Below, in pieces: positions 5,249 through 47,032 of a DNA stretch of 47,032 bases. The notes beneath the pieces are model-generated. The model did no database searches, had not been told where the DNA came from, and saw only the letters and a program-made list of their open reading frames with translations. Position 1 is the stretch's first letter. Each line of letters begins with the position of its first letter. The translations under genes were made by a program, and so were the position numbers. This stretch comes from Thiotrichaceae bacterium (lineage in GTDB: Bacteria; Pseudomonadota; Gammaproteobacteria; Thiotrichales; Thiotrichaceae), in the NCBI GenBank assembly GCA_026991755.1, contig JALXAX010000144.1, forward strand, positions 1 to 47,032. Direction: 5' to 3'.

Positions 5249-5256
5249 AATTTAAC

Positions 5257-6354
5257 ATGGACACTAGTTTTTCCAATAAGGTGCTAGCCTGGTTTGATGA
5301 GCACGGACGCAAAAATCTACCTTGGCAACAAAACCCACACGCTTACAACACATGGGTTTCTGAAATCATGTTGCAGCAAACTCAAGTGGCGACCGTTATC
5401 CCCTATTTCGAAAAGTTCATGTCAGCTTTTCCTGATGTCATCACGCTAGCTAATGCAGATCAAGATGAAGTACTTAAACATTGGGCGGGGCTTGGCTACT
5501 ATAGCCGAGCACGTAATCTACATGCCGCTGCCAAACAGGTTCGAGATGAATTTAAGGGTATTGTGCCAGATGATTTAGATGCGCTGATAAGCCTTTCTGG
5601 TATTGGGCGTTCAACCGCAGGTGCTATCTTGAGTTTGGCTTATCAACAACCCCAAGCTATTTTGGATGGCAATGTGAAACGCGTGCTTACTCGCTATCAT
5701 GCCGTTTCAGGCTGGACGGGAAAATCTGCTGTACTTAAAACATTATGGTCGTTGGCCGAGGCGCATTTACCTACTGATCAAACGGGTCAATCTAATCAGC
5801 CAAACCCACCTAGTCCTCCTCTTAGCCAACGCAATGCAGATTATACCCAAGCCATGATGGATCTTGGTGCAACGCTTTGTACACGCACAAAGCCAACCTG
5901 TTTAATTTGTCCTTTACAGGAAGGTTGTAAAGCACTCAAGCAAGGCAATCCGACCGATTATCCAACACCTAAACCCCGTAAGGTTGTTCCTGATAAATAT
6001 GCCACTATGTTATTGCTCATCAACGATGATAATGATGTATTACTGGAAAAACGTCCTTCACCGGGTATTTGGGGTGGATTGTGGAGTTTGCCACAGTTTG
6101 ATGATCAACAAAGTGCAGAAAGCTGGTATGAAAACAAATACAATCATGTATTTAATCACATGGAAGAGCTAGATAGCTTTTCTCATACTTTTAGCCATTT
6201 TCGCTTACATGTTCAACCGATCAAAATAAAGCATTCAATACAAGCTAAAGGGGTTATGGAAGCAGATGACAACCTCTGGTATAACAGTGGCACAGATTTT
6301 AGTGGTGGATTACCCGCCCCAATAAAGAAACTATTTAAAAGGATTCAACTATGA
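5257..6354 (+). CDS. mutY: Adenine DNA glycosylase MutY
   Basis: MutY removes adenine mispaired with 8-oxoguanine in base-excision repair. At 365 residues the protein has the usual family length. The catalytic Glu lies in SEIMLQQTQV, and the helix-hairpin-helix reads LSGIGRSTAGAI. The catalytic Asp lies in ILDGNVKRVL. The 4Fe-4S cluster cysteines are spaced C-x6-C-x2-C-x5-C in the segment from CTRTKPTC to EGC. The C-terminal part, from about residue 245, is the NUDIX-like 8-oxoG recognition domain with GIWGGLWSLP. A Pro/Gln/Asn-rich linker interrupts the glycosylase domain near residue 180. The stop overlaps the yggX start by four bases, implying translational coupling, an arrangement common in gammaproteobacteria. 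Confidence 0.97.
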   Translation: MDTSFSNKVLAWFDEHGRKNLPWQQNPHAYNTWVSEIMLQQTQVATVIPYFEKFMSAFPDVITLANADQDEVLKHWAGLGYYSRARNLHAAAKQVRDEFKGIVPDDLDALISLSGIGRSTAGAILSLAYQQPQAILDGNVKRVLTRYHAVSGWTGKSAVLKTLWSLAEAHLPTDQTGQSNQPNPPSPPLSQRNADYTQAMMDLGATLCTRTKPTCLICPLQEGCKALKQGNPTDYPTPKPRKVVPDKYATMLLLINDDNDVLLEKRPSPGIWGGLWSLPQFDDQQSAESWYENKYNHVFNHMEELDSFSHTFSHFRLHVQPIKIKHSIQAKGVMEADDNLWYNSGTDFSGGLPAPIKKLFKRIQL

Positions 6355-6617
6355 CACGTATGGTTCAATGTATTAAGCTTGGTAAAGAGTCAGAAGGTTT
6401 AGAGCGCCTTACTTACCCTGGTGAGTTAGGTAAGAAGATTTTTGATAATGTATCAAAATCAGCTTGGGGTGACTGGATTAAACAACAAACTATTCTTATG
6501 AATGAGTATCGTTTAACACCTGTAAATCCTAAAGACCGAAAATTTCTTGAAGAAGAAATGGATAAGTTTTTCTTTGGTGAAGGCGCTTCTAAAATTGATA
6601 ATTTCGTGCCTAAATAA
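6351..6617 (+). CDS. yggX: Probable Fe(2+)-trafficking protein YggX
   Basis: This 88-residue protein matches the YggX family along its whole length. The conserved N-terminal cysteine is in MVQCIKLGKE, with GLERLTYPGELG and WGDWIKQQTILMNE following. YggX protects iron-sulfur clusters against oxidation and is commonly encoded after mutY, whose product has such a cluster. The ATGA overlap with mutY indicates one mRNA. A strong hairpin follows four bases after the stop. Confidence 0.96.
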   Translation: MTRMVQCIKLGKESEGLERLTYPGELGKKIFDNVSKSAWGDWIKQQTILMNEYRLTPVNPKDRKFLEEEMDKFFFGEGASKIDNFVPK

Positions 6618-6620
6618 AGG

Positions 6621-6660
6621 TTAAGGAATCTCTGATCAGAGTTAATCAGAGATTCCTTAA
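6621..6660 (+). terminator. Perfect 16-bp stem-loop after yggX
   Basis: TTAAGGAATCTCTGAT at 6621-6636 pairs perfectly with 6645-6660 across an eight-base loop. No T-tract follows, so it may act as an mRNA 3'-end stabiliser or a poor terminator rather than a classical intrinsic terminator. Confidence 0.6.
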
Positions 6661-6839
6661 GGCAAATAGCGCATACCATATAAAACAGGCTGTCCTCCTT
6701 ATTTCAAGACTGATAGCTCACAAAATCGTGCTATCTTGACCTTAATCAGAAAAAACCCCACCGAACTATGGAGAATATAAGTTAGTTCTTATATAATCCG
6801 CCGATATTTTTTTACTGATCCGTTATTCAGGAGTACATA

Positions 6840-7883
6840 GTGTCAACTCATTCTTCACACAAAGATCCCGCTGCAAAAGTAGTACTATTAGTTAGTTTAC
6901 TGCTTATTCTTGCTACTGTTTTTGTTCTTGTTAGTAGTCTTTTCAGTACTATTTCTAAAAATAGCACTAAAGGTGAAATTGACATGGACACTCTGGTTGC
7001 GAATAACGCATCTATGGTCGAAGCAAAAATTAAGCCTATTGGTGAAGTGACTACTTCTGATGCTTCTGGCGCTGTGGCTGCTGGCCCTGCTCGTTCTGGC
7101 GAAGAAGTTTATACGGCTGTTTGTGCAGCTTGTCATGGTACAGGTGCTGCAGGCGCTCCAAAGATTGATGACAAAGCTGCTTGGGCACCTCGTGTGGATA
7201 CTGGTTTTGATGCACTCATGAATACGGCTATTAACGGTAAAGGCGCTATGCCAGCTCGTGGTGGTCAAAATGTACCTGATGCTGAACTAAAAGCTGCTAT
7301 CGCTTATATGACAACTAAAGCAGGTTTCAACCTGGCTATTCCTAAAGATGAGGCTCCCGCAGCAAAAGCAGAAGAGCCCACTAAAGAAGCAACATCAACG
7401 GATGCTAAACCAAAGGCAGAAGCTGAAACTACCACTGACGAGAAAAAAGAAGAAGCTCCAGCAGCAGCTAGCGCGGCTCCTGTTGCGCCTTCTGCACCAG
7501 AAACACCTAAGACGCCAGAGACACCTAAAGCTGAAGAGGCTTCTGCTCCCGTTACAGTAGCAGCACCTGAAGCTGTAGCGACACCTGAAGTTGCAGCAGC
7601 CCCAGTTAGCGAAGAAAAAGCAGCACCCGCAATATCAGGTGAGACAATTTACAAATCTACTTGTTTCGCTTGTCATGGAATGGGCGTAGCAGGTTCTCCA
7701 AAGTTGGGCGATAAGGCAGCTTGGGAGCCACGTATTGCAAAAGGCAATGATGCGCTTTACACATCTGCTATTAAAGGAGTGCAAAGCACAACAGGTGTAA
7801 TGCCTCCTAAAGGCGGAAACTTCAGCTTATCTGATGATGAAGTTAAAGCTGCTGTGGATTACATGGTTGCTAGTGCGAAATAA
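6840..7883 (+). CDS. Membrane-anchored di-haem cytochrome c5-type protein
   Basis: The 347-residue protein starts at GTG 6840, preceded by AGGAG about seven bases upstream. A TATAAT-like -10 box lies at 6792-6797. Residues 13-36 form an uncleaved N-terminal anchor, placing both cytochrome domains in the periplasm. Domain 1 has CAACH at 95-99 and a likely Met ligand in GAMPARGG. Domain 2 has CFACH at 275-279 and GVMPPKGG. The domains share the c5 signature (AAGAPKxDDKAAW and AGSPKLGDKAAW), so they arose by duplication. A linker of about 100 residues rich in Ala, Pro, Glu and Lys separates them and may act as a flexible tether. The probable role is electron transfer between the bc1 complex and terminal oxidase or other periplasmic partners. 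The exact partner is inferred. Confidence 0.92.
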   Translation: MSTHSSHKDPAAKVVLLVSLLLILATVFVLVSSLFSTISKNSTKGEIDMDTLVANNASMVEAKIKPIGEVTTSDASGAVAAGPARSGEEVYTAVCAACHGTGAAGAPKIDDKAAWAPRVDTGFDALMNTAINGKGAMPARGGQNVPDAELKAAIAYMTTKAGFNLAIPKDEAPAAKAEEPTKEATSTDAKPKAEAETTTDEKKEEAPAAASAAPVAPSAPETPKTPETPKAEEASAPVTVAAPEAVATPEVAAAPVSEEKAAPAISGETIYKSTCFACHGMGVAGSPKLGDKAAWEPRIAKGNDALYTSAIKGVQSTTGVMPPKGGNFSLSDDEVKAAVDYMVASAK

Positions 7884-7905
7884 GCAACACCCTACAACCT
7901 TATAA

Positions 7906-8067
7906 CCTGAATCCGTGACTTCACTACGGCACAGGACACAAGCTATTGGTTCATCACAGGTTTAAAAAATACCCGCTTAACAAAGGGTGAAGCTAAGATT
8001 TTTTTAAAATCCCGTGCTAAACCAATAGCTTGCGCCCTGTTATCCGCATTGAAGTCACGGATTCAGG
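7906..8067. mobile_element. 162-bp family A miniature inverted-repeat element
   Basis: CCTGAATCCGTGACTTC at 7906-7922 and its exact inverse at 8051-8067 bound the element. The interior is also largely self-complementary: ACAAGCTATTGGTT near 7938 pairs with AACCAATAGCTTG near 8020. The direct repeat TATAA lies immediately outside both ends (7901-7905 and 8068-8072), as expected of a target-site duplication. It has no coding capacity. Related copies lie at 16145-16190, 138-180 and 10072-10088. Confidence 0.8.
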
Positions 8068-8080
8068 TATAACTCATAAA

Positions 8081-8119
8081 AAAAGGCACCTTAAATTAAA
8101 ATTTATAGGTGCCTTTTTT
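8081..8119. terminator. Bidirectional rho-independent terminator
   Basis: AAAAGGCACCT at 8081-8091 pairs with AGGTGCCTTTT from 8107. An A-run precedes the stem and a T-run follows it. It sits between the convergent cytochrome gene and the small lipoprotein gene and could end both transcripts. Confidence 0.85.
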
Positions 8120-8165
8120 ATTGCTTACGTAGCAAGCAACAGATTAGTTACTTGTTCAGTGGTTC

Positions 8166-8510
8166 TTAATTAGGGTCTTCATAAAAAACATACGAAGTAG
8201 AGTAGTCACTAAATTCAAAGTAAACTTTCTTCTCTCCCTTATCCGCTATACCATTCAAATTTGTATCATAAACACCATAACCATAACGATAAGGACGTGA
8301 CCCACCATCTGAAGTACCCGAAGCAGTAGAAAGTTTATCTATCTCCAAAAACTTCTTTACTAGCTTATCACCTGCATAGACTTCCAAAACACCATTCGTA
8401 CCTGTCCAGTTCTGGATACCACGACCAAACTTATTCTGTGTTTCCTGTGTACATGAGGCTAAGCCCAAAACACTAACGACACCTACTGCGAACATTGCTT
8501 TCTTTAGCAT
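8166..8510 (-). CDS. Small lipoprotein with EF-hand-like loop
   Basis: The 114-residue protein has a short signal ending in the lipobox LASC, so it should be lipid-anchored. No family is recognised. The mature part begins with TQNKFGRGIQNWTG and continues as strand-rich sequence. Near residues 82-93 it has DTNLNGIADKGE, which fits the DxNxNGxxDxGE pattern of an EF-hand or dockerin-type calcium loop. It is followed by YFEFSDYSTSYVF. It lies downstream of mltA on the same strand with a gap of about 70 bases. A ribosome-binding site (AGGAGTG) precedes the ATG. The bidirectional terminator at 8081-8119 lies beyond its 3' end. A role in envelope calcium binding is possible but unproven. Confidence 0.75.
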   Translation of the reverse strand: MLKKAMFAVGVVSVLGLASCTQETQNKFGRGIQNWTGTNGVLEVYAGDKLVKKFLEIDKLSTASGTSDGGSRPYRYGYGVYDTNLNGIADKGEKKVYFEFSDYSTSYVFYEDPN

Positions 8511-8580
8511 TGTTTATCACTCCTTAATAAAATTATGATGCAACTACTTTCAACCTAGGTTCTAACATACTATAGCAAAA

Positions 8581-9783
8581 CTAATAGGGTTTCGCTGAGG
8601 CTGTTTGAAGGACTGATTGGCTTTTATCCAACAATAAATAAGCCCGACGTAAACCTGTAACCTGATTTGCCCAGTTACGCGCCCACTCACCCGTACCCGT
8701 GTAAAAATCAAGTCGTGAGTTGCCTTTAATCGCATTTCCTCTGTCTTGTGGAAACAGCAATCGCCATTCATAATTCAAGATATTACCTTGGTTATCAATT
8801 CGTGGGATTTCAGCTAACAACACTGCACCAAAAGGAATGAAGCTTGTATCTACTGCAACCGTATGACCAGGTATTAACTTCATACCTGATGCCGTCGATG
8901 CCATTTCATTACCTATCGAGAAATAAACATAGCGAGGGTTGGCTGCAAAAACTTCACTAATGGACTCAGGGTGCTGGTGTAACCATGCTGTAATCGCTCG
9001 ACGTGAAAGGTCACCATTAAGATAACCCCTGCTTTGCATATACTTTGCAATACTCTTAAAGTGTTTACCGTTAGAACCTGAATAGCGCAGGACCTTACGA
9101 GCACCATCCTCAAATACCAATACACCCGAACCTTGCATGTGAATATAAAACAAGTCTATTGCATCTCTAACCCATGCAATTTCTAGCCCTCTTCCCTCTA
9201 ATGCACCTTTATTGATATCAGCACGACTAAAAGTTCGTTGATTATCCATCGGATCACGATAAACAGGAAAACGATACTCATAAGAATAGTGTTTTCTCGC
9301 TTCAATTTCTGGTGTGTAGTAACCCGTAAACTTTGTCTTATTGCTGGTGTAATGGGATAAACTCACTAGCTCAAATTGATCTAATAAACTTTGCTGATTA
9401 TCCAACCAACGCAAGACACCATTTGCCGTATTAAGTAATTGACCACTACTAAGGTTTACCCCTTTATCAGCAAAACGTCTGTATCTAGGATATTTCTTTA
9501 GAAACTTAATTTGATTACTCAGACCTTCTCGTGTCGCTTTATTATTGACCACACAAGAGCTATTCATAATCGCTAATTGATTACAATCTACTGATGGTGA
9601 GACAGATGAGGTAAATGACTCTGAATAAAGCCCTTCAGATGAAGTATTCCATGAATCTGTGATTTCGACTTGCTCATAGCGAGACATCTGTTCACCGGCA
9701 TAATCCTTGGGGAGGAATTCTGCATGAATAGAAGTTATCGCCAAGCCAGCCATGAGCATTGCTGCTACATATCGGTTTAACAT
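8581..9783 (-). CDS. mltA: Membrane-bound lytic murein transglycosylase A-like
   Basis: This 400-residue MltA-family protein cleaves peptidoglycan glycan strands to 1,6-anhydro-muropeptides in the periplasm. It has a signal peptide ending near SIHA-EF. Unlike E. coli MltA it has no lipobox, so it may be soluble or differently attached. The MltA barrel includes KFTGYYTPEIEARK and the AWVRDAIDLFYIHMQGSG region. The C-terminal 3D domain has HTVAVDTSFIPFGAVLLAE and FPQDRGNAIKGNSRLDFY, which carries the conserved Asp residues of the active site. It belongs to a minus-strand murein cluster with the genes at 10090-10956 and 11308-12516. Confidence 0.93.
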   Translation of the reverse strand: MLNRYVAAMLMAGLAITSIHAEFLPKDYAGEQMSRYEQVEITDSWNTSSEGLYSESFTSSVSPSVDCNQLAIMNSSCVVNNKATREGLSNQIKFLKKYPRYRRFADKGVNLSSGQLLNTANGVLRWLDNQQSLLDQFELVSLSHYTSNKTKFTGYYTPEIEARKHYSYEYRFPVYRDPMDNQRTFSRADINKGALEGRGLEIAWVRDAIDLFYIHMQGSGVLVFEDGARKVLRYSGSNGKHFKSIAKYMQSRGYLNGDLSRRAITAWLHQHPESISEVFAANPRYVYFSIGNEMASTASGMKLIPGHTVAVDTSFIPFGAVLLAEIPRIDNQGNILNYEWRLLFPQDRGNAIKGNSRLDFYTGTGEWARNWANQVTGLRRAYLLLDKSQSVLQTASAKPY

Positions 9784-9928
9784 TTGACACCCTTATTTTT
9801 ATTATTGATAACCATGACTTTTTTGGGGAAAGTAACGGTTATTTGTTATTGGGATGTTAAGTATGCAGGATTCGTTTTATAAAAACTGGTTGAGCTGATG
9901 AAATGCAATTCTTAAATATTTATAAAGT

Positions 9929-9985
9929 GAGACCTTTGCACGAAAGATATAATGGATAAAGGCTTAACTTTCGTGCAAAGGTCTC
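9929..9985. repeat. 57-bp family C inverted repeat
   Basis: GAGACCTTTGCACGAAAG at 9929-9946 faces its exact inverse at 9968-9985. The pentamer AAAGT directly abuts both ends (9924-9928 and 9986-9990), consistent with a target duplication. It is a short relative of the 213-bp element at 10986-11198. No other feature was seen in 9784-9928. Confidence 0.75.
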
Positions 9986-10003
9986 AAAGTATTTATTCCC
10001 GGC

Positions 10004-10030
10004 AAAAAAATAGGGTGCTAATTGCACCCT
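10004..10030 (-). terminator. Rho-independent terminator of the lysozyme-like lipoprotein gene
   Basis: On the minus strand AGGGTGC and GCACCCT form a seven-base stem with a five-base loop, followed by a run of seven T residues. It lies about 60 bases after the stop of the gene at 10090-10956. Confidence 0.8.
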
Positions 10031-10071
10031 ACTTCCTAAAAGATGATAAACATCAACCTAAATGCCGTAAT

Positions 10072-10088
10072 GAAGTCACAGATTCAGG
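10072..10088. repeat. Solo end of family A element
   Basis: GAAGTCACAGATTCAGG differs by one base from the family A terminus. It is preceded by CCGTAAT, as in the right ends at 8051-8067 and 16172-16190. No partner end was found nearby, so it is probably a remnant. It abuts the stop codon of the next gene. Confidence 0.6.
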
Positions 10089-10089
10089 A

Positions 10090-10956
10090 TTAAAGCCTAC
10101 GGTAAGTATTCACACGGTTACGCCACCCTGCTAACCATCTAGCTTCATTATTTTGCGGTGGTGAATTTCTTACTCTACGAGCTAACACACCATAAGCCGC
10201 ATCGGCAAAATTATTTAATGCCTGTGGTCCAGGCTGGCTGGGGCGCATCGTTTCGAGCACTTGCAACATGCCCCAGTTCTGACCTCGATAGCCACCGCTA
10301 CGATTCAAACCTTCACCTTTAAAATTCACATAATCAATAAGTGGATACCAACCACCTGGCGTATTAGCCAACGCGTTAATGTTTTGCGCAACGAGTTTCT
10401 TTAGCTGAGGAGGTGTTGCTTTAACAAACCTCTGTAGCGCAAACTTGCTTCTCTCAACGATATGTTCAGCCTGTAAACCACGTGTTTGATATAAATAACT
10501 AATGAGTTGCTGTACTTGAGGAGTGTGTTTTACACGTTCCAGCTCTTGCTTTGTATACCAGGGCGCGCCACGAGCCACTGCAAAAGTCACCCACGGAGGA
10601 GGTGGAGCACCACGACTAGTCATATATTCGATCAGCTTGGGAAAACTATTACCAAAGCGTTGTTTTCTTCCTGCGGGATACCACGTGTAGTGTCCAATCC
10701 CCATTGCCGCAAAATCTTCTCCGACATTCCAATGAACGAGCTTATTTCTATCTCCGCCTGCTTCATTGATAAAAATCTTTTCACCAATTCTACGCATTTC
10801 AGCTGCATCAGGTCCCATGGAAATAGTGGGACCAGTACCTGCTTCAGGGATGATCCCTCCTGCTTCAGGGACGGTTTGACCAAACTGATTAAGACTACAA
10901 CCTGAAATGGTGGTTGCAAAAAAAAGGACTAGCCCAACACTCAACACTCTTTTCAT
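10090..10956 (-). CDS. Lysozyme-like lipoprotein of unknown function
   Basis: The chosen start is the ATG at 10956, preceded by AAGGAAG. A start 42 bases further upstream would run into the repeat at 10986. The 288-residue product has a lipobox (TISGC) and should be lipid-anchored. Residues following FINEAGG and MGIGHYTWYP are reminiscent of lysozyme-like hydrolases, with the Glu of NEAGG as a candidate catalytic residue. The C-terminal part has a YVNFKGEG and GQNWGMLQVLE segment typical of an uncharacterised exported family. It is encoded between two lytic transglycosylase genes, which supports a cell-wall role. That role is inference, because no enzyme of this exact family is recognised here. 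Confidence 0.8.
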   Translation of the reverse strand: MKRVLSVGLVLFFATTISGCSLNQFGQTVPEAGGIIPEAGTGPTISMGPDAAEMRRIGEKIFINEAGGDRNKLVHWNVGEDFAAMGIGHYTWYPAGRKQRFGNSFPKLIEYMTSRGAPPPPWVTFAVARGAPWYTKQELERVKHTPQVQQLISYLYQTRGLQAEHIVERSKFALQRFVKATPPQLKKLVAQNINALANTPGGWYPLIDYVNFKGEGLNRSGGYRGQNWGMLQVLETMRPSQPGPQALNNFADAAYGVLARRVRNSPPQNNEARWLAGWRNRVNTYRRL

Positions 10957-37675: not shown

Positions 37676-38950
37676 ATGTTGACTCCTAGCTCCCCTCATC
37701 ACCAAACCAACCTATTTGGCTCAGACCTGCTGCTCCAGCTTGATCCCAGCGATCCCCTTCTCAAATTGTCAGAAACCATTCCATGGGAATTATTTGATGA
37801 GCAGTTTGCCAAGCACTACTGCAAAGATAACGGAGCTGCTACACGGGCGAGCAGCACTCGAAAATAATGTCAATATAGACACCACCGTACAAGAGAAAAA
37901 CATCACCTACCCCACCGACTCTAAACTCGCCATTAAAATCATAAACCGTCTGAACAAGCTAGCTAAGAAAGAAGGGATTCAACAACACCGTACCTACCTC
38001 AAAGAAGTGAAGCACTGCCGTCTGGCTATTCGGAACTTTCGTCATCCTAAGAAACGCATCAAGGCTAGAAAAGCACTGAAATGTTTACGCACCATCGCGG
38101 GTATTCTTATCCGTGAACTGAGAAGAAAGCTCTCAGCGTACGATCTGTTCGAGGTTCACCAAAGAGACTTTCTATTCTATGAGCGTGTACTAGCACAGCG
38201 TCTCAAAGATAAGCATAAGATCTATTCACTGCATGAGCCTCATGTTTACTGTATGGTCAAAGGAAAAGATCATGTGCCCTACGAATATGGCAATAAAGTC
38301 TCTATCGCCAGTACCGCGAAGAGCAATAGTATTGTCGGTGCGGTCAGTCATGAGAAAAACATCCATGACAGCCATACATTACCCGAAGTACTGGAACATA
38401 TTGATCAGAGCCGAGGAATGAAAGCCAAGCAAGCCACCTGTGTTAGAGGGTATCGAGGCAAAAACAACGTTAATGGTACCGACATCGTGCTACCCAAGCC
38501 TCCCTTGAAGCGGGACAATCGCTATCAGCGTGATAAAAAGCGCAAACAGTGTCGAAGGCGAGCTGCCATAGAGCCGATCATAGGTCATTTGAAATCAGAC
38601 TTTCGATTATCCAGAAACTTCCTTAAGGAACCTCTTGTATCTGATCAAGTCATGATTCGTTTTTCTGAGGCTAGAATCCGCCAGCTTTTCGCTATAAAAG
38701 TGACCAATAGCTACGGCTATTGCTAACTTTTCTATCAAAAACCTGACAAATTCTATCTGCTGAAGCTTCTAGGTTTCGCTAAAGCTCAGCTAAGTCTCAG
38801 AAATTCCGATCAGACTTAATCAGCTTAAGGGAACTGCAGGGGATGAAATCAACCTTCTGATGGCTGCAGCTGCCTGGAATTTAAAGAAATGGCTGGTGGC
38901 CTTTTTTTCACTGTTATTTTTAGGGAAACAGAGTGAATATTGGGCATCTC
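37676..38950 (+). pseudogene. Decayed IS5-family transposase
   Basis: The N-terminal segment starts at ATG 37676 with HHQTNLFGSDLLLQLDP and KHYCKDNG. It then breaks at about 37835, where roughly 80 codons typical of the family are missing. The next frame carries NIDTTVQEKNITYPTDSKL, the GNKVSIAST region and RRRAAIEPIIGHLKSDFRLS, which match the DDE transposase core. It is interrupted at 38629. The C-terminus, GDEINLLMAAAAWNLKKW, resumes in another frame at 38831. Removal of exactly 202 bases restores the frame. The normal stop is lost at the vapC junction. No clear terminal inverted repeats were found. Inactive as a transposase. Confidence 0.85.
38629..38830. mobile_element. 202-bp insertion within the transposase remnant
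   Basis: The insert is bounded by the heptamer CTTAAGG at 38622-38628 and 38824-38830, as expected of a target duplication. Internal inverted sequence links CTGATCAAGTC at 38641 with GACTTAATCAG near 38813-38823, and TTTCTGAG near 38666 with CTCAGAAA near 38796. This suggests a MITE-like unit nested in the IS. No coding capacity was found. Confidence 0.7.
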
Positions 38951-38969: not shown

Positions 38970-39368
38970 TTATTCAACCCAATTCTCTACATTCAACTCA
39001 GGCACACGACCAAATTCTCGCATATTATTAGTCACCAAAATGGCATTGATACTCCGCGCATGGGCAGCAATCAAGGTGTCATTATTACCAATAGGTGTAC
39101 CCTGCCGTTTTAGATAAGAGCGGATTTGTCCGTAATGTCTGGCGGCTTCTTCATTCCAGGGTTCGATAAGCAGCCTTCTGGTAAACATATTCAGTTGTAC
39201 CCAGCGCTCCTTTCTTTTTAAAGCTTCACCGTTTTCTATTCCATAACAGAGTTCACCGTAGGTAATTGAAGAGATACAAAGCTCTTTAATGGCTTTGAAC
39301 TTGTGACGTAGTTTATCTGAATGATTTTTTAGGACAAAGCTACAGGTATCGGTATCCAGCATGTACAT
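38970..39368 (-). CDS. vapC: VapC-type PIN-domain ribonuclease toxin
   Basis: The 132-residue toxin has the PIN signature. The first acidic residue is in MLDTDTCSFVL, the second in ITYGELCYGIE, then GNNDTLIAAHARS and TNNMREF. VapC toxins cleave tRNA or rRNA. The start shares a base with the vapB stop, so the two are coupled. The transposase remnant ends just after the toxin stop. The toxin looks intact. Confidence 0.93.
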   Translation of the reverse strand: MYMLDTDTCSFVLKNHSDKLRHKFKAIKELCISSITYGELCYGIENGEALKRKERWVQLNMFTRRLLIEPWNEEAARHYGQIRSYLKRQGTPIGNNDTLIAAHARSINAILVTNNMREFGRVPELNVENWVE

Positions 39369-40019: not shown

Positions 40020-40520
40020 CTAAATCAGGCCGTGTTCTGCAAATGAAGTGACTGCATCAGGGCTGACGATAAAATGATCCAGCACACGAATATCAACCTG
40101 AGCCAAAGCATCTTTTAAACGCTTGGTAATTCTCTGATCGGAATCGCTTGGATCTGTTACCCCTGAAGGGTGATTATGAGCAAAAATGATAGCGGCCGCA
40201 TTGCACTTTAGAGCCTTCTGAAGCACGACTCTGGGATAAACCGAAGCCCCATCAATCGTACCAAAGAACAACTCTTCAGGCTTGATAATACGGTGGCGGT
40301 TATCCAGAAACAAAGCGACAAACACTTCACTTTCACGATGACCTATCCATTGCTGCAAATAGCGTTTGGTATGATCAGGCGAGGTAATTTCATCGCCTCG
40401 TTGAAAACTCTGTATAGCAATAAACGAAGCCATCTCTAAAATATCTCTGGCAGAAACTACTTTGGGAACACGATAGTTACCAGTTGTTTCATTGAGGATA
40501 AAATGGGATTGATGCTGCAT
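40020..40520 (-). CDS. radC: RadC-family JAB/MPN-domain protein
   Basis: The start at 40520 (MQHQSHFILNE) is chosen because AAGGAG precedes it. A longer frame would pass through the hairpin-rich leader. The 166-residue protein has the RadC metalloprotease-like fold. The metal motif is HNHPSGVTDPSDSD, and VLDHFIVS follows. Short RadC proteins without the N-terminal helix-hairpin-helix are typical of integrated islands. Their function is unclear, and a role in DNA repair is not established. Confidence 0.93.
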   Translation of the reverse strand: MQHQSHFILNETTGNYRVPKVVSARDILEMASFIAIQSFQRGDEITSPDHTKRYLQQWIGHRESEVFVALFLDNRHRIIKPEELFFGTIDGASVYPRVVLQKALKCNAAAIIFAHNHPSGVTDPSDSDQRITKRLKDALAQVDIRVLDHFIVSPDAVTSFAEHGLI

Positions 40521-40552
40521 GGGTGATCTCCTTGAATTTAAAAGACAGGGAA

Positions 40553-40650
40553 ACCACCTATGACGTATCGAGGGGATTCCCCGATAGGGTGGATTATGCA
40601 CATGAGATACTTAAAGTATCCGAACTCGTAGATTATGTGCTGGCGAGTTC
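40553..40650. repeat. Structured leader of radC
   Basis: CCACCTAT (40554-40561) pairs imperfectly with ATAGGGTGG (40584-40592). Inside it, TCGAGGGGA pairs with TTCCCCGA (40568-40584). A second stem joins GAACTCG (40622-40628) and CGAGTTC (40644-40650). This lies in the 5' leader of radC and opposite the antitoxin gene. The remaining bases to 40783 show nothing else. Confidence 0.55.
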
Positions 40651-41052: not shown

Positions 41053-41508
41053 ATGAAATATATCTTTGATCTTGATACGCTCACCTACCTTTCTGATCCA
41101 GACTCTCCCTTTTTTGAAATAACTAGTAAAAAAGCATCACAACTTACACCGTCAGATGTGCCTTGTATTTCTATCTTGACCCTATATGAACTTCAATACA
41201 GTCTGAGCAATACAAGCGATAGCAATATAAGAGAAAAAATCAGAGAGTTAATTAACTGGTTGAACGAGGATTTTGAGATTCTGCCGCTTAGCTTTTCTGG
41301 TGCCGAGTATTACGGACAGTTAAAACAGGGGTTTAGACAAAAAACTGGGATCAACAGAACAGCCATTAAAAAACATAATATTGATCTTATCCTAGCTTCT
41401 ACAGCACTTGAACATGATTGTATACTGGTTGCAATGGATGGTATCTACAGTAATCACTTAGTTAAAATAAATCCGAATTTTAAAACTCAGAACTGGACAG
41501 TTGACTAG
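41053..41508 (+). CDS. PIN-domain toxin (VapC-like)
   Basis: The 151-residue protein is a PIN nuclease. Acidic residues lie in IFDLDTLTYLSD, the LTLYELQYSLSN segment, HNIDLILASTALEHD and VAMDGIYSNH. The overall layout matches VapC. The preceding gene is its likely antitoxin. The final acidic site deviates from the usual TNNxRDF, reading AMDGIYS instead. Confidence 0.85.
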   Translation: MKYIFDLDTLTYLSDPDSPFFEITSKKASQLTPSDVPCISILTLYELQYSLSNTSDSNIREKIRELINWLNEDFEILPLSFSGAEYYGQLKQGFRQKTGINRTAIKKHNIDLILASTALEHDCILVAMDGIYSNHLVKINPNFKTQNWTVD

Positions 41509-41509
41509 A

Positions 41510-41920
41510 TCACCCCACCAAAATCCGAGGCCAACGCTCATGCACAGCATCCTCAATTTCAGGTTCAACGGTCACCACATATACTCGCTGCTCATGGTTA
41601 TCTCTGGCAATTAACCCCTGAATCCATTTGCCCTTGGTAATATCAAACCAGTGGCTTGTGCCTTCCACATCTTTTTCCATAAATTGAGAAACCTGGAGCT
41701 TCACAGGGACAGGGAAATACCGATCCCAGCGACCTGCATAGATAGAATCCAGTCTTGCCCAACCTCCTAGCGGTAATGCGCCTTGTTGGTTCTTACGTCT
41801 GCCCCAAGGAATCAATTGAATCTCTCCCTTCTTATTTTTTACAGGCAAAACGGCCTTAGGGTTAGGAAAGTAAAACCGATTTTCTTCACCTTTATGAATG
41901 TAAAATACGCCCCCACACAT
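41510..41920 (-). CDS. SRAP/YedK-like protein with N-terminal MCGG
   Basis: The start at 41920 is chosen because the product begins MCGGVFYIHKGE and GAGGTGAT lies just upstream. Removal of Met would expose Cys2, the catalytic residue in SRAP (YedK/HMCES) proteins, which crosslink abasic sites. The 136-residue protein is shorter than typical SRAP domains. It has PNPKAVLPVKNKKGEIQLIP, WGRRKNQQGALPLGGWARLD, VPVKLQVSQFMEKD and a VYVVTVEPEIEDAVHERWPR end. Conserved WGRR and GGWARLDS segments recall the family, but the usual catalytic Glu and His are hard to place. It lies downstream of the recombinase operon, which suggests a role in island DNA metabolism. Family membership is tentative. Confidence 0.65.
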   Translation of the reverse strand: MCGGVFYIHKGEENRFYFPNPKAVLPVKNKKGEIQLIPWGRRKNQQGALPLGGWARLDSIYAGRWDRYFPVPVKLQVSQFMEKDVEGTSHWFDITKGKWIQGLIARDNHEQRVYVVTVEPEIEDAVHERWPRILVG

Positions 41921-42091
41921 ACCATCACCTCTAGTTTCTAGTTGTTGTATTAATCTTTCTTTTGCTCGGCTTGTGGCAAAATAGTTTGTCGGTGTCCATC
42001 GGGTTTCCATGCAGGTTTTGTGTACCTACAATTCAGATGTGTCAAATTAACCCTATAAGCTTTGCACAAACCATTTTTCATAAACAAATAA

Positions 42092-43567
42092 CTACTCATT
42101 ATTCATTGCCTGCTTTGCATCTATTAAAATTTTTGACAGTCTTTCTGTTACTTGATCAATTACCTGTGCTGCTGTTAAAGATGGATTTACGTTCAACTCA
42201 TGTCGCAAGTCAAGCAACTCAGAATACAAATCATCCGTTGCATGAAGTCTTTTCAGGGCGCGATCTACATTGCCCCAGATATCCAGTTCATTCCAGGCAA
42301 GGTCAATGTAGTGCCACAGACTATCAACAGATCCATGCCCTGTTTTAGTGGCAACTCGTTTGAGTATTGAACGATAGTCGCTATCCGTCATCATTTGCCT
42401 GGATTTTTCATGGTTGCTGATAAATGCCTTTAAATGGGCTATGACTTCATAGGTAATAAACCGATGCCGAAACATGGACAGACAGGCTTTTGTCTCTTTG
42501 TAGCCAGCAACTTTGACTAGCCGATTAAAATCTTTCTTGATGGAGTTATTTTCAATGACTGTTCCCGTTCGTGTCAGAAAAAGCTGTTGAACATCCTGAT
42601 ACCTCTTATCTTGCTGTTTGAGAAAGATGACAAATTTATCACGAGCCAGAAGATAGCGTTTAACCGTTCCCGCACCTTTTAAAGTAATAGGGAAAGCTCG
42701 TTTGGGTGCAATAAATTTGCGTCTTTTTCGGGTAGGTATAATCAGGGTTTTGGTTTTCAGAATATTGACATGATCTGCTAATGAGATGGAGGTCATTTCA
42801 GATAGCCTGAGACCTGTTCTTTTCATAATCCATACCATAAAGCGTCTACGCGCCCTGATATATTCCAGCTCAGCTTTAAGAAGATCTCTGTTTCCGTCAT
42901 ACCGCCTAAGCGTAGCTTCTTTAACATTATCCAGTCGTGAAAGCTGTTCAATTGCTCTTTCAATATCCTCAATAACCGTTATTGGTAGCACACCTTTAGG
43001 CTCGGTGCTTTCAGAGGGTGGCATGGAAGCATGATAAAAATAGTTTTTTCGGCTATGTCTGTTGAAGACTTCCTTTACCCTGATTTGTGGTGACTGTTCA
43101 GACGTACTAATTAGTGGCGTATGAGCAGGTAGTAAAAGATGTTTTTGATACCAGAAAAGGAATGTAATGGTTTTACCCAGTATTCTGCGAACGGTATTAT
43201 TATTCCTTGCCCATTCTGTTGCATGATAGCGTGATAATTCAGTTTGAAGCTGATATGAAAACGTCCATAAACAAGCATCCGTTAATGCCTCAAAGGCTGT
43301 TTCATGATGACCACAAAAACGGACAATATGGCTCAGTTCAGAAGCATAAGTCATGGCAGAATTGCCAGTAGATTCCTGAGCTTTCTGCATCAGGTAGATA
43401 TTCACGGCGATACATGGCTTACCATTAGGCCAGAAAATAAAAGGCAGTGAGGGTAGTATCAGATGTTTAACATGCTGTCTGTTAGACCCTGGAATGACAT
43501 AATGAGGAATCGCTACCTCTTTATAGCGGATATAAAGTTGTGGCTGGGGACGGTTCATGACTGTCAT
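42092..43567 (-). CDS. Tyrosine recombinase/integrase, 491 residues
   Basis: The protein has the catalytic core of tyrosine recombinases: Arg254 in MKRTGLRLSEM, Lys-rich strand TRKRRKFIAPKRAFP, Arg367 in SMFRHRF, His411 in TGHGSVDSLW and Tyr420 in WHYIDLAW. The first His of the box II HxxR is replaced by Ser (position 364). The N-terminal half is probably the arm/core-binding domain. Residues 420-491 form a C-terminal extension. It is the last gene of the overlapping operon. Its ATGA start overlaps the preceding stop by four bases. Confidence 0.92.
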   Translation of the reverse strand: MTVMNRPQPQLYIRYKEVAIPHYVIPGSNRQHVKHLILPSLPFIFWPNGKPCIAVNIYLMQKAQESTGNSAMTYASELSHIVRFCGHHETAFEALTDACLWTFSYQLQTELSRYHATEWARNNNTVRRILGKTITFLFWYQKHLLLPAHTPLISTSEQSPQIRVKEVFNRHSRKNYFYHASMPPSESTEPKGVLPITVIEDIERAIEQLSRLDNVKEATLRRYDGNRDLLKAELEYIRARRRFMVWIMKRTGLRLSEMTSISLADHVNILKTKTLIIPTRKRRKFIAPKRAFPITLKGAGTVKRYLLARDKFVIFLKQQDKRYQDVQQLFLTRTGTVIENNSIKKDFNRLVKVAGYKETKACLSMFRHRFITYEVIAHLKAFISNHEKSRQMMTDSDYRSILKRVATKTGHGSVDSLWHYIDLAWNELDIWGNVDRALKRLHATDDLYSELLDLRHELNVNPSLTAAQVIDQVTERLSKILIDAKQAMNNE

Positions 43568-44136
43568 CTGTCCGTACCTCCCTTGACGACGTGTATTTCT
43601 ACCGTATTGCTTTGCAGATCAAAACTCATCAAATGACCATAAAGAGCACGATGATCTTCCAGTAAATTGTGCAGCCTCTGCTGTGTCCTATCCTCTAACA
43701 AGGCATTTTCGAGCAAAAACCTGATTTTACAAAACAGATCCCTATATGCCTGTGATTGAAGTGCGTTGGTCAGTGCTGTTTCCCGTAATCTCAATTGAAG
43801 CAAAGCCACTTTATCTTTAGAGCGCTTTTCAATAGCCGCATGAGAACGACCTGTTTTTTTGCTTTTAACCCTCCTTGCCAGTTTTAAACGCAGCGAGTCC
43901 AATAATTCCCATCCATCATCGGGTCTGGCTTCTTTCATGAGGGCAAGGCTAGCGGCTGCTTTCAATGTGTTTAGCGTCATAGCCTCAAAATGATCTTTAA
44001 CAGCAAGCTGGGCAAATTTTCTCTGGTTCTTTAGTGCAGCTATAAAATCATCAGAAAGTTGATCATCATCATTATCAAGAGCTGCCAGAAGATAGCAATA
44101 ACGGGCATAGGCATTATCAATATTTTGCTGTCTCAT
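43564..44136 (-). CDS. Small companion protein of recombinase operon
   Basis: The 190-residue protein is helical and strongly basic in residues 85-115 (KLARRVKSKKTGRSHAAIEK). It is free of recognisable domains. It is encoded between two large recombinases with four-base overlaps at both ends, so it must be made with them. In Tn554 and GInt-type elements a small non-recombinase protein accompanies the recombinases and is needed for transposition or excision. That role is inferred here. Confidence 0.7.
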   Translation of the reverse strand: MRQQNIDNAYARYCYLLAALDNDDDQLSDDFIAALKNQRKFAQLAVKDHFEAMTLNTLKAAASLALMKEARPDDGWELLDSLRLKLARRVKSKKTGRSHAAIEKRSKDKVALLQLRLRETALTNALQSQAYRDLFCKIRFLLENALLEDRTQQRLHNLLEDHRALYGHLMSFDLQSNTVEIHVVKGGTDR

Positions 44137-46337
44137 GTAGTCTCCCTGAGTACAAAAGCAATATTCAGCCCGATATTATCCCTGCCATTTTCAGCCAGAA
44201 TAGAATATGGCTCAAGATGGAAGCCATTCTCTTGGCGAAGTGTGTTGATATAGTTGATCCATTCACTTTCAGGGATAACATCCAGTGAGTTGACAGAGAA
44301 ATGCTGGCAGACCTTTTTATACAATAAATCAAGACCTTCTTCATTACACGAGTCATTATTATCGGCTCCAGACTCGCGTTGTAAACGCAATAAGCGATCC
44401 ACGGAATACTCTGCTTCAATGGCAGGTAACTCCTTGCTAGGAAAATTTGCTTCAATATAAGCCCAGAGATGACGGGCATTGGTATGACCTGCTATCCATC
44501 GGGCGGCATCCAGCACATCAAATCGCCCCGACCAGAAAAACAGGAGCAAGAACCATTTCCGCATTTCATGAATACGTACATACCATCGACGACCTGCCGT
44601 GTCAGGTTCCAGTCCAACATAATCACAAAAGGTATCCAGTGCATGATTAAGCCTGAATTTTCCTGTTACAGGTTTGTCTAGTCGAGTATTGGGAAGATAG
44701 AATAAATTATTCTTTAACTTGCGTTTTTCATCATAAATATCAGCCAGTCCCGAACCGAGTTGTTGTAATAGCTTGATAGCTTTTGCAGTGATAACGGGAA
44801 TGGGTCTTTCACAGCTCTGATATGCTTCGCCATAGTTACTTTTGCCAAGGGTAAAATGCAGGTAATAACCACCATGACCTCTGCGTAAGCAGTTTCTTTT
44901 TAGATGCAATATCTCATCTTCACGGGAAGGCTTGAGCATTGCCATACAAATAACGCAGGCTCCTACCAGAACTTGCAGGGCTTCATACAGGGTAAGGTGG
45001 TTTCCAAGGTCACCAGATCTGCGGAATGAAGAAGGCGGTAAAGTATATTTCTGGATACCTAAAGCTTCAGCGATGGGGATATTTTGTGTACCCACACTGA
45101 CACTTAACGAAGGTAATAAAGCATTAAATGCATCGGATGCCAGGTCATGGGCAGAGGGCTTACAAGTCCTTTTCTTTTTATCCAGTTGATTAACGACAGT
45201 AGCCATCTTTAGCACGGCATCAATGATGGTTTCACCGTATAAATGCACAAATCCTATCGCATGATTCAAATAGGCAAGCCCTGTATTAACAGGCATAAAG
45301 GGATGATGCTGGGCGGGGCGGGTTATTTTCAACGCCAGTTGCCGGGCAGTTCCTAAAGAAAAAGATTGAGATTCAGGAAAATAGACGGGTAGATGTTGTC
45401 GGGCTTTAAAGAAACGACGCAAATTTGCATGGGCATCGTTGATCACACCTTCCGATGCTTTTTGCTGAATGGTTTCTGCAAAGGTCAATGTCTTGTGAGA
45501 AGGGAATTCTGTTGTTACCGAAGCAGAATGAATGAGCACTTGTGTATGGAAATGGGCTTCAAACTGCCTGAAAAATGCCATTGCCCTGGATGATCGAAAA
45601 ACACCGCTGGATAGATGAACCCGTGCGGCAATGTCTTCTCTGTTTAGTGTGTAAATGGCCTCTCCATGTTGCTTTCTTTCCACCATCATACCCTGACTTT
45701 CAAGCCAGTCATGGATAGTAATAGCAACAGTGTGAGGTATTGAATAAGGCTGTGTAAGCAGGTTTTCAGGGCAGCATGTGCCATAAGCTTTTTTGTAACA
45801 GGTCTCAAGAAAAAGCTGGGGTACATGAAGCGCACAAAACCAGCCACCCTGAGCCAATAGAGCAAATAGCTGGTTTAATCCTGTCTGGTCAAGCAAGGCG
45901 AAGGCCTGTTTTTTAGGAGCATACTGGTGACGCTGCAGTACCATCCATGCAGCAAGCTGCATTGTCCACAGGGTTGTTGAATACCAGGTAACAGGAGCCA
46001 GTCTGGGCATCAACAACCCTTGTCTGAGCAAAAAAGAAGCCTTCTTCAGTACTTGCAATAACAAGTGGTTATCTGAGTCAGTCAAACAACTGGCATCAGG
46101 CAATGGATGATTCCAGTACACGGCACGGGTGAAATGCCATTGCCCTGCGATTAGTTCTTCTCGTCCCCGATTGCTGGTATGCCAGATATCAGACTCAAAG
46201 GGAGTGAGTAGCCACAGAGCTTCATACCGCCCTGCAAAAGAGGTTACAGAGTGCTCTGAATGTCTTAAAATCTGATGGATCAGATCTGAATCCTGTTGCT
46301 CCCGTGAGATAACATCCTGTTTAGCCAATAAAGTCAT
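44133..46337 (-). CDS. Large divergent tyrosine recombinase, 734 residues
   Basis: The C-terminal third carries a tyrosine recombinase core. Arg472 lies in KPSREDEILHL, with His590 and Arg593 in RIHEMRKWF, His618 in IAGHTNARHL and Tyr627 in LWAYIEANFP. The N-terminal 400 residues show no known domain and include HxLARG-like and Trp-rich segments. Residues 635-734 form a charged C-terminal extension. Size and multi-gene context match large recombinases of Tn554 (TnpB) and GInt islands. It starts one base inside the upstream stop and overlaps the downstream gene by four bases. Confidence 0.88.
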   Translation of the reverse strand: MTLLAKQDVISREQQDSDLIHQILRHSEHSVTSFAGRYEALWLLTPFESDIWHTSNRGREELIAGQWHFTRAVYWNHPLPDASCLTDSDNHLLLQVLKKASFLLRQGLLMPRLAPVTWYSTTLWTMQLAAWMVLQRHQYAPKKQAFALLDQTGLNQLFALLAQGGWFCALHVPQLFLETCYKKAYGTCCPENLLTQPYSIPHTVAITIHDWLESQGMMVERKQHGEAIYTLNREDIAARVHLSSGVFRSSRAMAFFRQFEAHFHTQVLIHSASVTTEFPSHKTLTFAETIQQKASEGVINDAHANLRRFFKARQHLPVYFPESQSFSLGTARQLALKITRPAQHHPFMPVNTGLAYLNHAIGFVHLYGETIIDAVLKMATVVNQLDKKKRTCKPSAHDLASDAFNALLPSLSVSVGTQNIPIAEALGIQKYTLPPSSFRRSGDLGNHLTLYEALQVLVGACVICMAMLKPSREDEILHLKRNCLRRGHGGYYLHFTLGKSNYGEAYQSCERPIPVITAKAIKLLQQLGSGLADIYDEKRKLKNNLFYLPNTRLDKPVTGKFRLNHALDTFCDYVGLEPDTAGRRWYVRIHEMRKWFLLLFFWSGRFDVLDAARWIAGHTNARHLWAYIEANFPSKELPAIEAEYSVDRLLRLQRESGADNNDSCNEEGLDLLYKKVCQHFSVNSLDVIPESEWINYINTLRQENGFHLEPYSILAENGRDNIGLNIAFVLRETT

Positions 46338-46951
46338 CAGACTTCTCCCCAGCTTTTAGACAAGGTAAATTGTTTGAAGCAGGCTGTGTATGTTGCCTGC
46401 TGTTTCAGCGCTAAAGAATGGGTGCTTTTTAATGATTCAATAGCTAGTATTTCGCGCATAAGAAGCGAGTGTTTATCAGTCTCACAGGCATGTTTTATCA
46501 GGGTGGATAGTTCAATCAAAGATTGCACCTGAAATTTTATATCCTTGGTTTGACAAGAATAGTCATGCTGGGAAGCCCATTTAGAAAAGGCATATAAAAG
46601 CCCTAGAGAATGCTCTGAAAGTCTGAGATGCAATACACTATCAGTCATATTGACTTCATTTTCTGGTGCATGATTAAAACGGCTCAGACGATAATGAATT
46701 TCACTGGCAACAGGGCTAGAACCCGCAGGATAATCTAACAACAACTGAGTAATAAAGCAGGTTAAATCTGCCAGACTGGTGAAATCAGAAATGTGTAGCA
46801 AATAATCTTCATCATGGGTGGAAAGAACAATAAGTAGCTGCTGAAAACGACGTACCAAACGGGTATTCCAGGCATAAAGCAGAGCAGGAGGAATGTAATG
46901 TTCAAGGGCTACACGCTGGGAGTTACCTAGGGCAATCGCATTAAAATAATA
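46337..46951 (-). pseudogene. C-terminal part of a third tyrosine recombinase
   Basis: The frame opens after TGA 46952-46954 without an upstream ATG, and the first usable start is a TTG at 46858. Before that TTG the translation still reads ALGNSQRVALEHYIP then ALLYAWNTRLVRRFQ. This matches the end of a recombinase domain, with the candidate nucleophilic Tyr in LEHYIPP. So the gene is 5'-truncated or interrupted by the in-frame TGA. The rest is a helical extension. Its TGA overlaps the ATG of the 734-residue recombinase by one base. Translation from TTG 46858 would give a 173-residue protein lacking the catalytic residues. Confidence 0.6.
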
Positions 46952-47032
46952 TCAACTATCAAGCACTTGACTTTTCTCTCCAAAAAGAACCTTTAGTAAG
47001 TAGGTTTTATCCCAGCCAGCCTTAAGTCGCTT
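46952..47032 (-). other. Partial reading frame running off the window
   Basis: From the window edge the minus-strand frame reads KRLKAGWDKTYLLKVLFGEK and ends at the TGA 46952-46954, in the same frame as the recombinase tail. It may be the end of a different gene joined by recombination, or an upstream part of the same recombinase interrupted by a nonsense codon. The 26 residues are too few to identify. Confidence 0.4.

Follow-up and report, generated by a model that had tools for sequence, protein, structure and literature searches.

A four-gene tyrosine-recombinase operon inserted in umuC of a Thiotrichaceae bacterium, with relatives in hrpB and other genes

The operon and its genes

The window analysed here, 47,032 nucleotides from Thiotrichaceae bacterium (GCA_026991755.1), is the entire contig C144 of a draft genome in 207 contigs (G000). 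The features at issue, with the evidence for each in brackets, are as follows.

46927–47032, no strand assigned: end of an IS, in a copy inserted in gene A, the opposite end of which lies on contig C47 of the same genome (L115) from 7209 (repeat at other contig ends, junction sequences)
46337–46926, minus: C-terminal part of gene A, a predicted tyrosine-recombinase-fold protein with a putative Tfp/GinC-like role (two-piece homolog match, AF2 model of the L031 homolog)
44133–46337, minus: gene B, large catalytic tyrosine recombinase, 734 aa, R472 K499 H590 R593 H618 Y627 (ORF, alignment)
43564–44136, minus: gene s, small basic helical protein, 190 aa, pI 9.2 (ORF, AF2 model, kept between B and i)
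42092–43567, minus: gene i, tyrosine recombinase, 491 aa, R254 K281 S364 R367 H411 Y420, ortholog-like to IntA of SEs (Pfam PF00589, hhalign to SE IntA 98.4%)
42016–42060, minus: right end of the element; a TGTCAAA motif lies about 24 bp inward from it (end comparison)
42008–42015, minus: attR core CCTGCATG, the left copy of which on C47 is CCCGCATT; a 7–8 bp imperfect direct repeat at the insertion site (junction sequences)
41950–42015, minus: 3′ fragment of umuC, encoding WKPDGHRQTILPQAEQKKD up to the stop codon and parted by the element from its gene on C47 (flank join in frame, intact gene in G022)
41510–41920, minus: umuC neighbour gene (MCGGVFY..., SRAP/HMCES-like start), host flank, also the neighbour of umuC in the empty-site relative (G022 comparison, flank join)

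In the list of open reading frames the genes share one strand and overlap by 1 (B/A), 4 (s/B) and 4 (i/s) bases; these overlaps and the sizes of B, i and s are as given in a preliminary description made from the sequence alone. The catalytic residues that it assigned to B and i also lie where claimed and are conserved among relatives: in the alignments, R472, E475, K499, H590, R593 and Y627 of B are invariant in 68 of 68 relatives and H618 is present in 67, while R254, K281, R367 and Y420 of i are invariant in all 63 and H411 is present in 59. Both proteins carry complete catalytic sets. The Ser that had been noticed in place of the first box II His of i is present at position 364 and is a mark of the clade to which the window copy belongs (15 of 63 members); because the whole clade carries Ser, it is not read as a defect, and the idea that it denotes a dead enzyme was dropped.

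The gene upstream of B had been described as the tail of a third recombinase, with the tract reaching to 46951. The coding tail ends at 46926, since 46927–47032 belong to an IS. Its product, A, retains one Arg and the Tyr in 63 of 63 members and has neither the box I Arg nor the first box II His, so that the kinship holds for the fold rather than for the full active site. A was modelled on its closest full relative (L031; AF2, mean pLDDT 80.6): the top three PDB matches in Foldseek are tyrosine recombinases, and VIA Z is 7.0–12.5 for the recombinase and topoisomerase IB rows and at most 4.0 for the remaining rows. On this model, A is predicted to have a tyrosine-recombinase fold. The model of s (AF2, pLDDT 88.8) shows a small helical domain at the N terminus and then one long helix, and a structure search of the PDB with it gave no match. 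Searches of PHROGs and PADLOC supplied no name for A, B, s or i.

Gene A spans C47 into the window and is interrupted by the IS, as is concluded from three features. The L031 homolog matches two pieces of the genome, residues 20–532 on C47, where the N-terminal part of the gene occupies about 5640–7208, and residues 528–728 in the window. C47 terminates in the other end of such an IS, whose terminal inverted repeat is CTAGGGCAATCGCA. Both contigs carry the 8-bp target duplication GTAACTCC (window 46919–46926; C47 7201–7208). From the IS ends, the target duplication and the complementary gene halves, C47 and C144 are probably adjacent. The genome is a draft of 207 contigs and both pieces of A stop at contig ends, as they would if the split were an assembly artefact instead of a genuine insertion; the duplication and the matching inverted IS ends on both sides, together with the multicopy nature of the IS end, whose 106 bases recur at several other contig ends, make such an artefact very unlikely. 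The window copy has lost A to the IS and is probably immobile.

Insertion in umuC and the empty site

Both ends of the element were located and show that it interrupts umuC at its 3′ end, between the codons for NVIAPA and WKP. At the left junction, on C47, umuC reads to ...NVIAPA and then switches to FGRRPTFDF; at the right junction, at window position 42015 and 77 bases beyond the stop of i on the minus strand, the sequence reads TGGAAACCCGATGGACACC, the umuC tail that is absent from C47. When the flanks are joined, an uninterrupted UmuC frame ending ...NVIAPAWKPDGHRQTILPQAEQKKD is restored. The preliminary description had proposed a search of related genomes for an empty site, and one was found: a relative of the same family (G022) has an intact umuC ending ...NVIAPAWKPTGHRQTIEKTGGRE, followed directly by a homolog of the window gene at 41510–41920, and this umuC is the empty-site allele.

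Without the IS the element measures about 7.3 kb, running on C47 from 4819 and in the window down to 42016. The direct repeat at its ends agrees at 7 of 8 bp (CCYGCAT). Its terminal inverted repeat is weak, with 11 of 18 matches, a score equalled in 440 of 5000 shuffles and not significant alone. The only cargo, between the left end and A, is a degenerate BrnTA pair, made up of a gene for the BrnA antitoxin and a decayed BrnT. A radC gene at 40020–40601 had been considered as replacement-gene cargo, an idea prompted by a Cellvibrio relative inserted in radC (L040), and was rejected: it lies outside the element, the right end of which is at 42015.

Several further genes were noted around the two flanks. 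The window radC is a second, short RadC gene beside a full-length radC on contig C134. Adjoining the element are the remnant of an IS5-like transposase and two genes for PIN-domain toxins (37716–38726, 38970–39368 and 41053–41508), which suggests an insertion-prone region. On C47 (L115), upstream of lexA-umuC, positions 610–2620 encode a protein matching LmuA/ABC-3C CTD1 in PADLOC and an HNH endonuclease; the two may be a defence pair.

Recurrence of the gene order

A scan of bacterial genomes gave 130 relatives of B, of which 80 were taken for locus analysis. Of 88 loci from Gamma- and Betaproteobacteria, 79 have all four genes on one strand in the order A-B-s-i; the remaining nine are merely incomplete, being cut or without a recognisable gene. 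The position of the small protein between the two complete recombinases, which the preliminary description had singled out, is therefore not a chance layout, and the recurrence of the order at other sites that it had proposed to check extends over two proteobacterial classes. Searches of plasmids with tblastn found the four-gene set in Providencia, Pseudomonas and Acinetobacter. Viral contigs, searched with single proteins, gave no match.

In the trees of the four proteins (support 0.99 for i, 1.0 for B, 0.995 for A and 0.89 for s) the window copy groups with copies in Rhodoferax, Nitrosomonadales, Pseudogulbenkiania, Burkholderia, Photobacterium, Cellvibrio and some Pseudomonas, and this is the same clade that carries Ser at the first box II position of i. 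A set on the Pseudomonas plasmid pPUV-7 (L018) matches the family profiles for B (99.9%) and i (99.8%) in hhalign, and appears to be a distant branch with the same order. For clade-1 elements in other target genes, an automatic right-end search within the fetched flanks returned none. On a Providencia plasmid (L011) the module is immediately preceded by a class A beta-lactamase gene (1367–2230), which was also seen in loci from marine bacteria (L052–L054).

Sister elements in hrpB

All 13 Pseudomonas genomes tested have hrpB interrupted near codon 136 by elements of this family, the C-terminal part of the gene preceding A and the N-terminal part lying past the other end of the element. Where both ends are on one contig the elements measure about 34 to 80 kb. 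Their ends are inverted repeats, arranged as hrpB-spacer-TTGCCATTTGCA...TGCAAATGGCAA-AACGTG-hrpB, with an inner TGTCAA motif at both ends; the left spacers differ among elements and the right spacers are almost constant. Of the arrangement known from SEs, inverted-repeat termini beside 6-bp spacers, the signs are clear in the 13 hrpB elements and weak in the window copy. An intact second hrpB is present in all 13 genomes, mostly sharing a contig with the right-hand hrpB fragment and in several cases close beside it. The replacement hrpB downstream of i (L110, 13626–16175; also L103 and L108) is altered at the insertion core, for instance CGTACGAAGATGG for CTGCGCAGGTGG, which might protect it from re-insertion. 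hrpB has been mentioned as a site of islands in P. aeruginosa (PMC8373256).

The window copy by itself, small, disrupted by an IS and with only a degenerate toxin-antitoxin pair as cargo, could pass for a fixed host locus or a domesticated recombinase set that does not move. Against such a locus stand the precise umuC junctions with their empty allele, the interruption of hrpB in the 13 genomes, and the distribution of the module, which turned up only in the genome of the window, and in none of the other 94 relatives, when 95 relatives and about 370 genomes from the class were searched; a fixed host locus is hardly credible. Rather, the window operon is very probably part of a site-specific integrative element, belonging to a four-component tyrosine-recombinase family, A-B-s-i, that is related in kind to SEs and GInts.

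Relationship to SEs, GInts and other systems

The reference for SEs (strand-biased circularizing integrative elements, of which SE-6283, SE-6945 and SE-PaeBT2436 are named examples) was SE-PaeBT2436 on pHNAH8I-1 (L025), reached via a protein accession in PMC10214605; no SE reference was found in pAQU1 or in the first part of pSEA1. Two further SE sets (L028, L030) were included, and the Paraburkholderia set L029 was the sole GInt-like set compared. SEs share with the present family two catalytic tyrosine recombinases, a recombinase-fold protein without the full catalytic set and a small protein, encoded in an overlapping operon; inverted-repeat ends beside short spacers, as seen most clearly in the hrpB elements; and site-specific insertion into genes, including umuC-type targets, sometimes with a replacement target gene, such as the bcp carried by SE-6283 (PMC9345347). 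The order differs, being IntA-Tfp-IntB-Srap in SEs and A-B-s-i in the window and the 79 loci, so that the family starts with the fold protein whereas SEs start with an ordinary integrase, and i alone has a clear relationship to its SE counterpart. GInts likewise have a four-gene operon (ginABCD) at one end of the island and three integrase-type proteins, one of them without the first Arg (GinC; here A). They differ in that ginD is last, whereas in the family s is third and the small integrase i last. The insertion sites of GInts have imperfect direct repeats of 10–17 nt at attL/attR, and a possible counterpart in the window copy agrees at 7 of 8 bp.

With profiles of more than 60 members, hhalign linked i to IntA at 98.4% and gave 3.7% for B and IntB, 1.9% for A and Tfp and 1.4% for s and Srap; against the GInt-like L029 the values were 20% for i, 59% for B (a weak match to the third L029 gene), 1.4% for A and 1.8% for s. 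A and s thus have no profile match to any SE or L029 protein. Homologs of Tfp and Srap are the proteins that served for the discovery of SEs (PMC10214605). Because only i matches IntA, B is weak and A and s match nothing, the family is filed in neither group, even though it resembles both in its apparent working.

The family could instead be a divergent SE or GInt whose first gene was shifted to the last place in the operon, and hence an ordinary member of a described group. The identical four kinds of parts, the strong match of i to IntA and the similar layout of the ends would fit such an origin, as would the use of umuC/rulB as a target by SE-like integron-like elements (PMC4542609). The large profiles, however, connect neither A with Tfp, B with IntB nor s with Srap, whereas the Paraburkholderia GInt-like set, by contrast, matches SEs gene by gene (89–99.9%). 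Moreover, the trees of i and B place SEs and GInts together on one well-supported side (0.997 and 0.985), and both systems occur side by side in one locus of Serratia marcescens (L048, 6613–19550), where a complete SE module comes straight after the A-B-s-i module. We regard ordinary membership of a described group as unlikely, and lean towards a third, unnamed class beside SEs and GInts in Gamma- and Betaproteobacteria, distinguished by the fixed A-B-s-i order, by A, B and s families of its own, by insertion in hrpB, umuC, radC and other genes and, often, by its own repair copy of the target gene. This agrees with the suggestion in the preliminary description of a possible uncharacterised subtype akin to Tn554, RIT and GInt islands, as the order recurs and the profiles separate it from SEs and the GInt-like set.

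Two observations on SE-type sets were made in passing. In Pseudomonas gessardii (L096) an SE/GInt-like set on the opposite strand adjoins the A-B-s-i module. SEs have been reported only within Gammaproteobacteria, with none outside (PMC10214605); the L028 set is a complete SE core operon (4749–10104) on a plasmid of Burkholderia dolosa, a betaproteobacterium.

The integron-like elements ILE-FH1 and ILE-FH4 also have three recombinase-like genes and a small gene inserted in a umuC homolog, rulB, which is a target of integron-like elements with the SE/GInt plan, and ILE-FH4 carries a second RulB-like gene (PMC4542609); their order and sizes are those of SEs and GInts (xerD 385, int/rec 525 and int/rec 535, with 138 aa last). 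Tn554, set apart here by its description, has the three genes TnpA-TnpB-TnpC with the small one last and has no counterpart of A. RIT elements resemble the family in having several tyrosine recombinases per operon; these are three recombinases of 315–410 aa, all with the catalytic Tyr and with no small protein (PMC10214605, Table 1), whereas the family combines two large proteins, each of about 730 aa, with a fourth, small gene that is conserved. No NCBIfam match to the Gamma-Mobile-Trio (GmtX/Y/Z) was found in the window or in Providencia, Photobacterium and Vibrio members, although NCBIfam may have no Gmt models. The literature searched, mostly without subscription papers and hence weak evidence of absence, contained no description of the A-B-s-i family.

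Possible mechanism and significance

From experiments on SEs and GInts (PMC10214605, PMC5385486), we infer by analogy how an A-B-s-i element might move. B and i would be the two cleaving enzymes. A, bearing the fold without the full chemistry, may act as a partner that binds the ends or serves the architecture of the complex, like Tfp and GinC, and s may be a small accessory or orientation factor, like Srap, GinD and TnpC. Translational coupling would hold the four products in ratio. Together they would recombine both ends to form a circle containing a short spacer from one flank, which would then insert into a conserved target gene; a repaired copy of that gene is carried by many elements.

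If this reading is right, A-B-s-i would enlarge the small group of known elements that depend on three recombinase-like proteins plus a helper, and its independent gene order would offer a test of which parts are required for copy-out-like movement. The family is large and mostly unannotated, with A, s and often B labelled 'hypothetical protein', and it reaches clinical plasmids of Providencia (with the beta-lactamase gene just upstream), Pseudomonas and Acinetobacter. For the hrpB islands, at a site already known in P. aeruginosa, it provides a defined end structure and a replacement-gene strategy.
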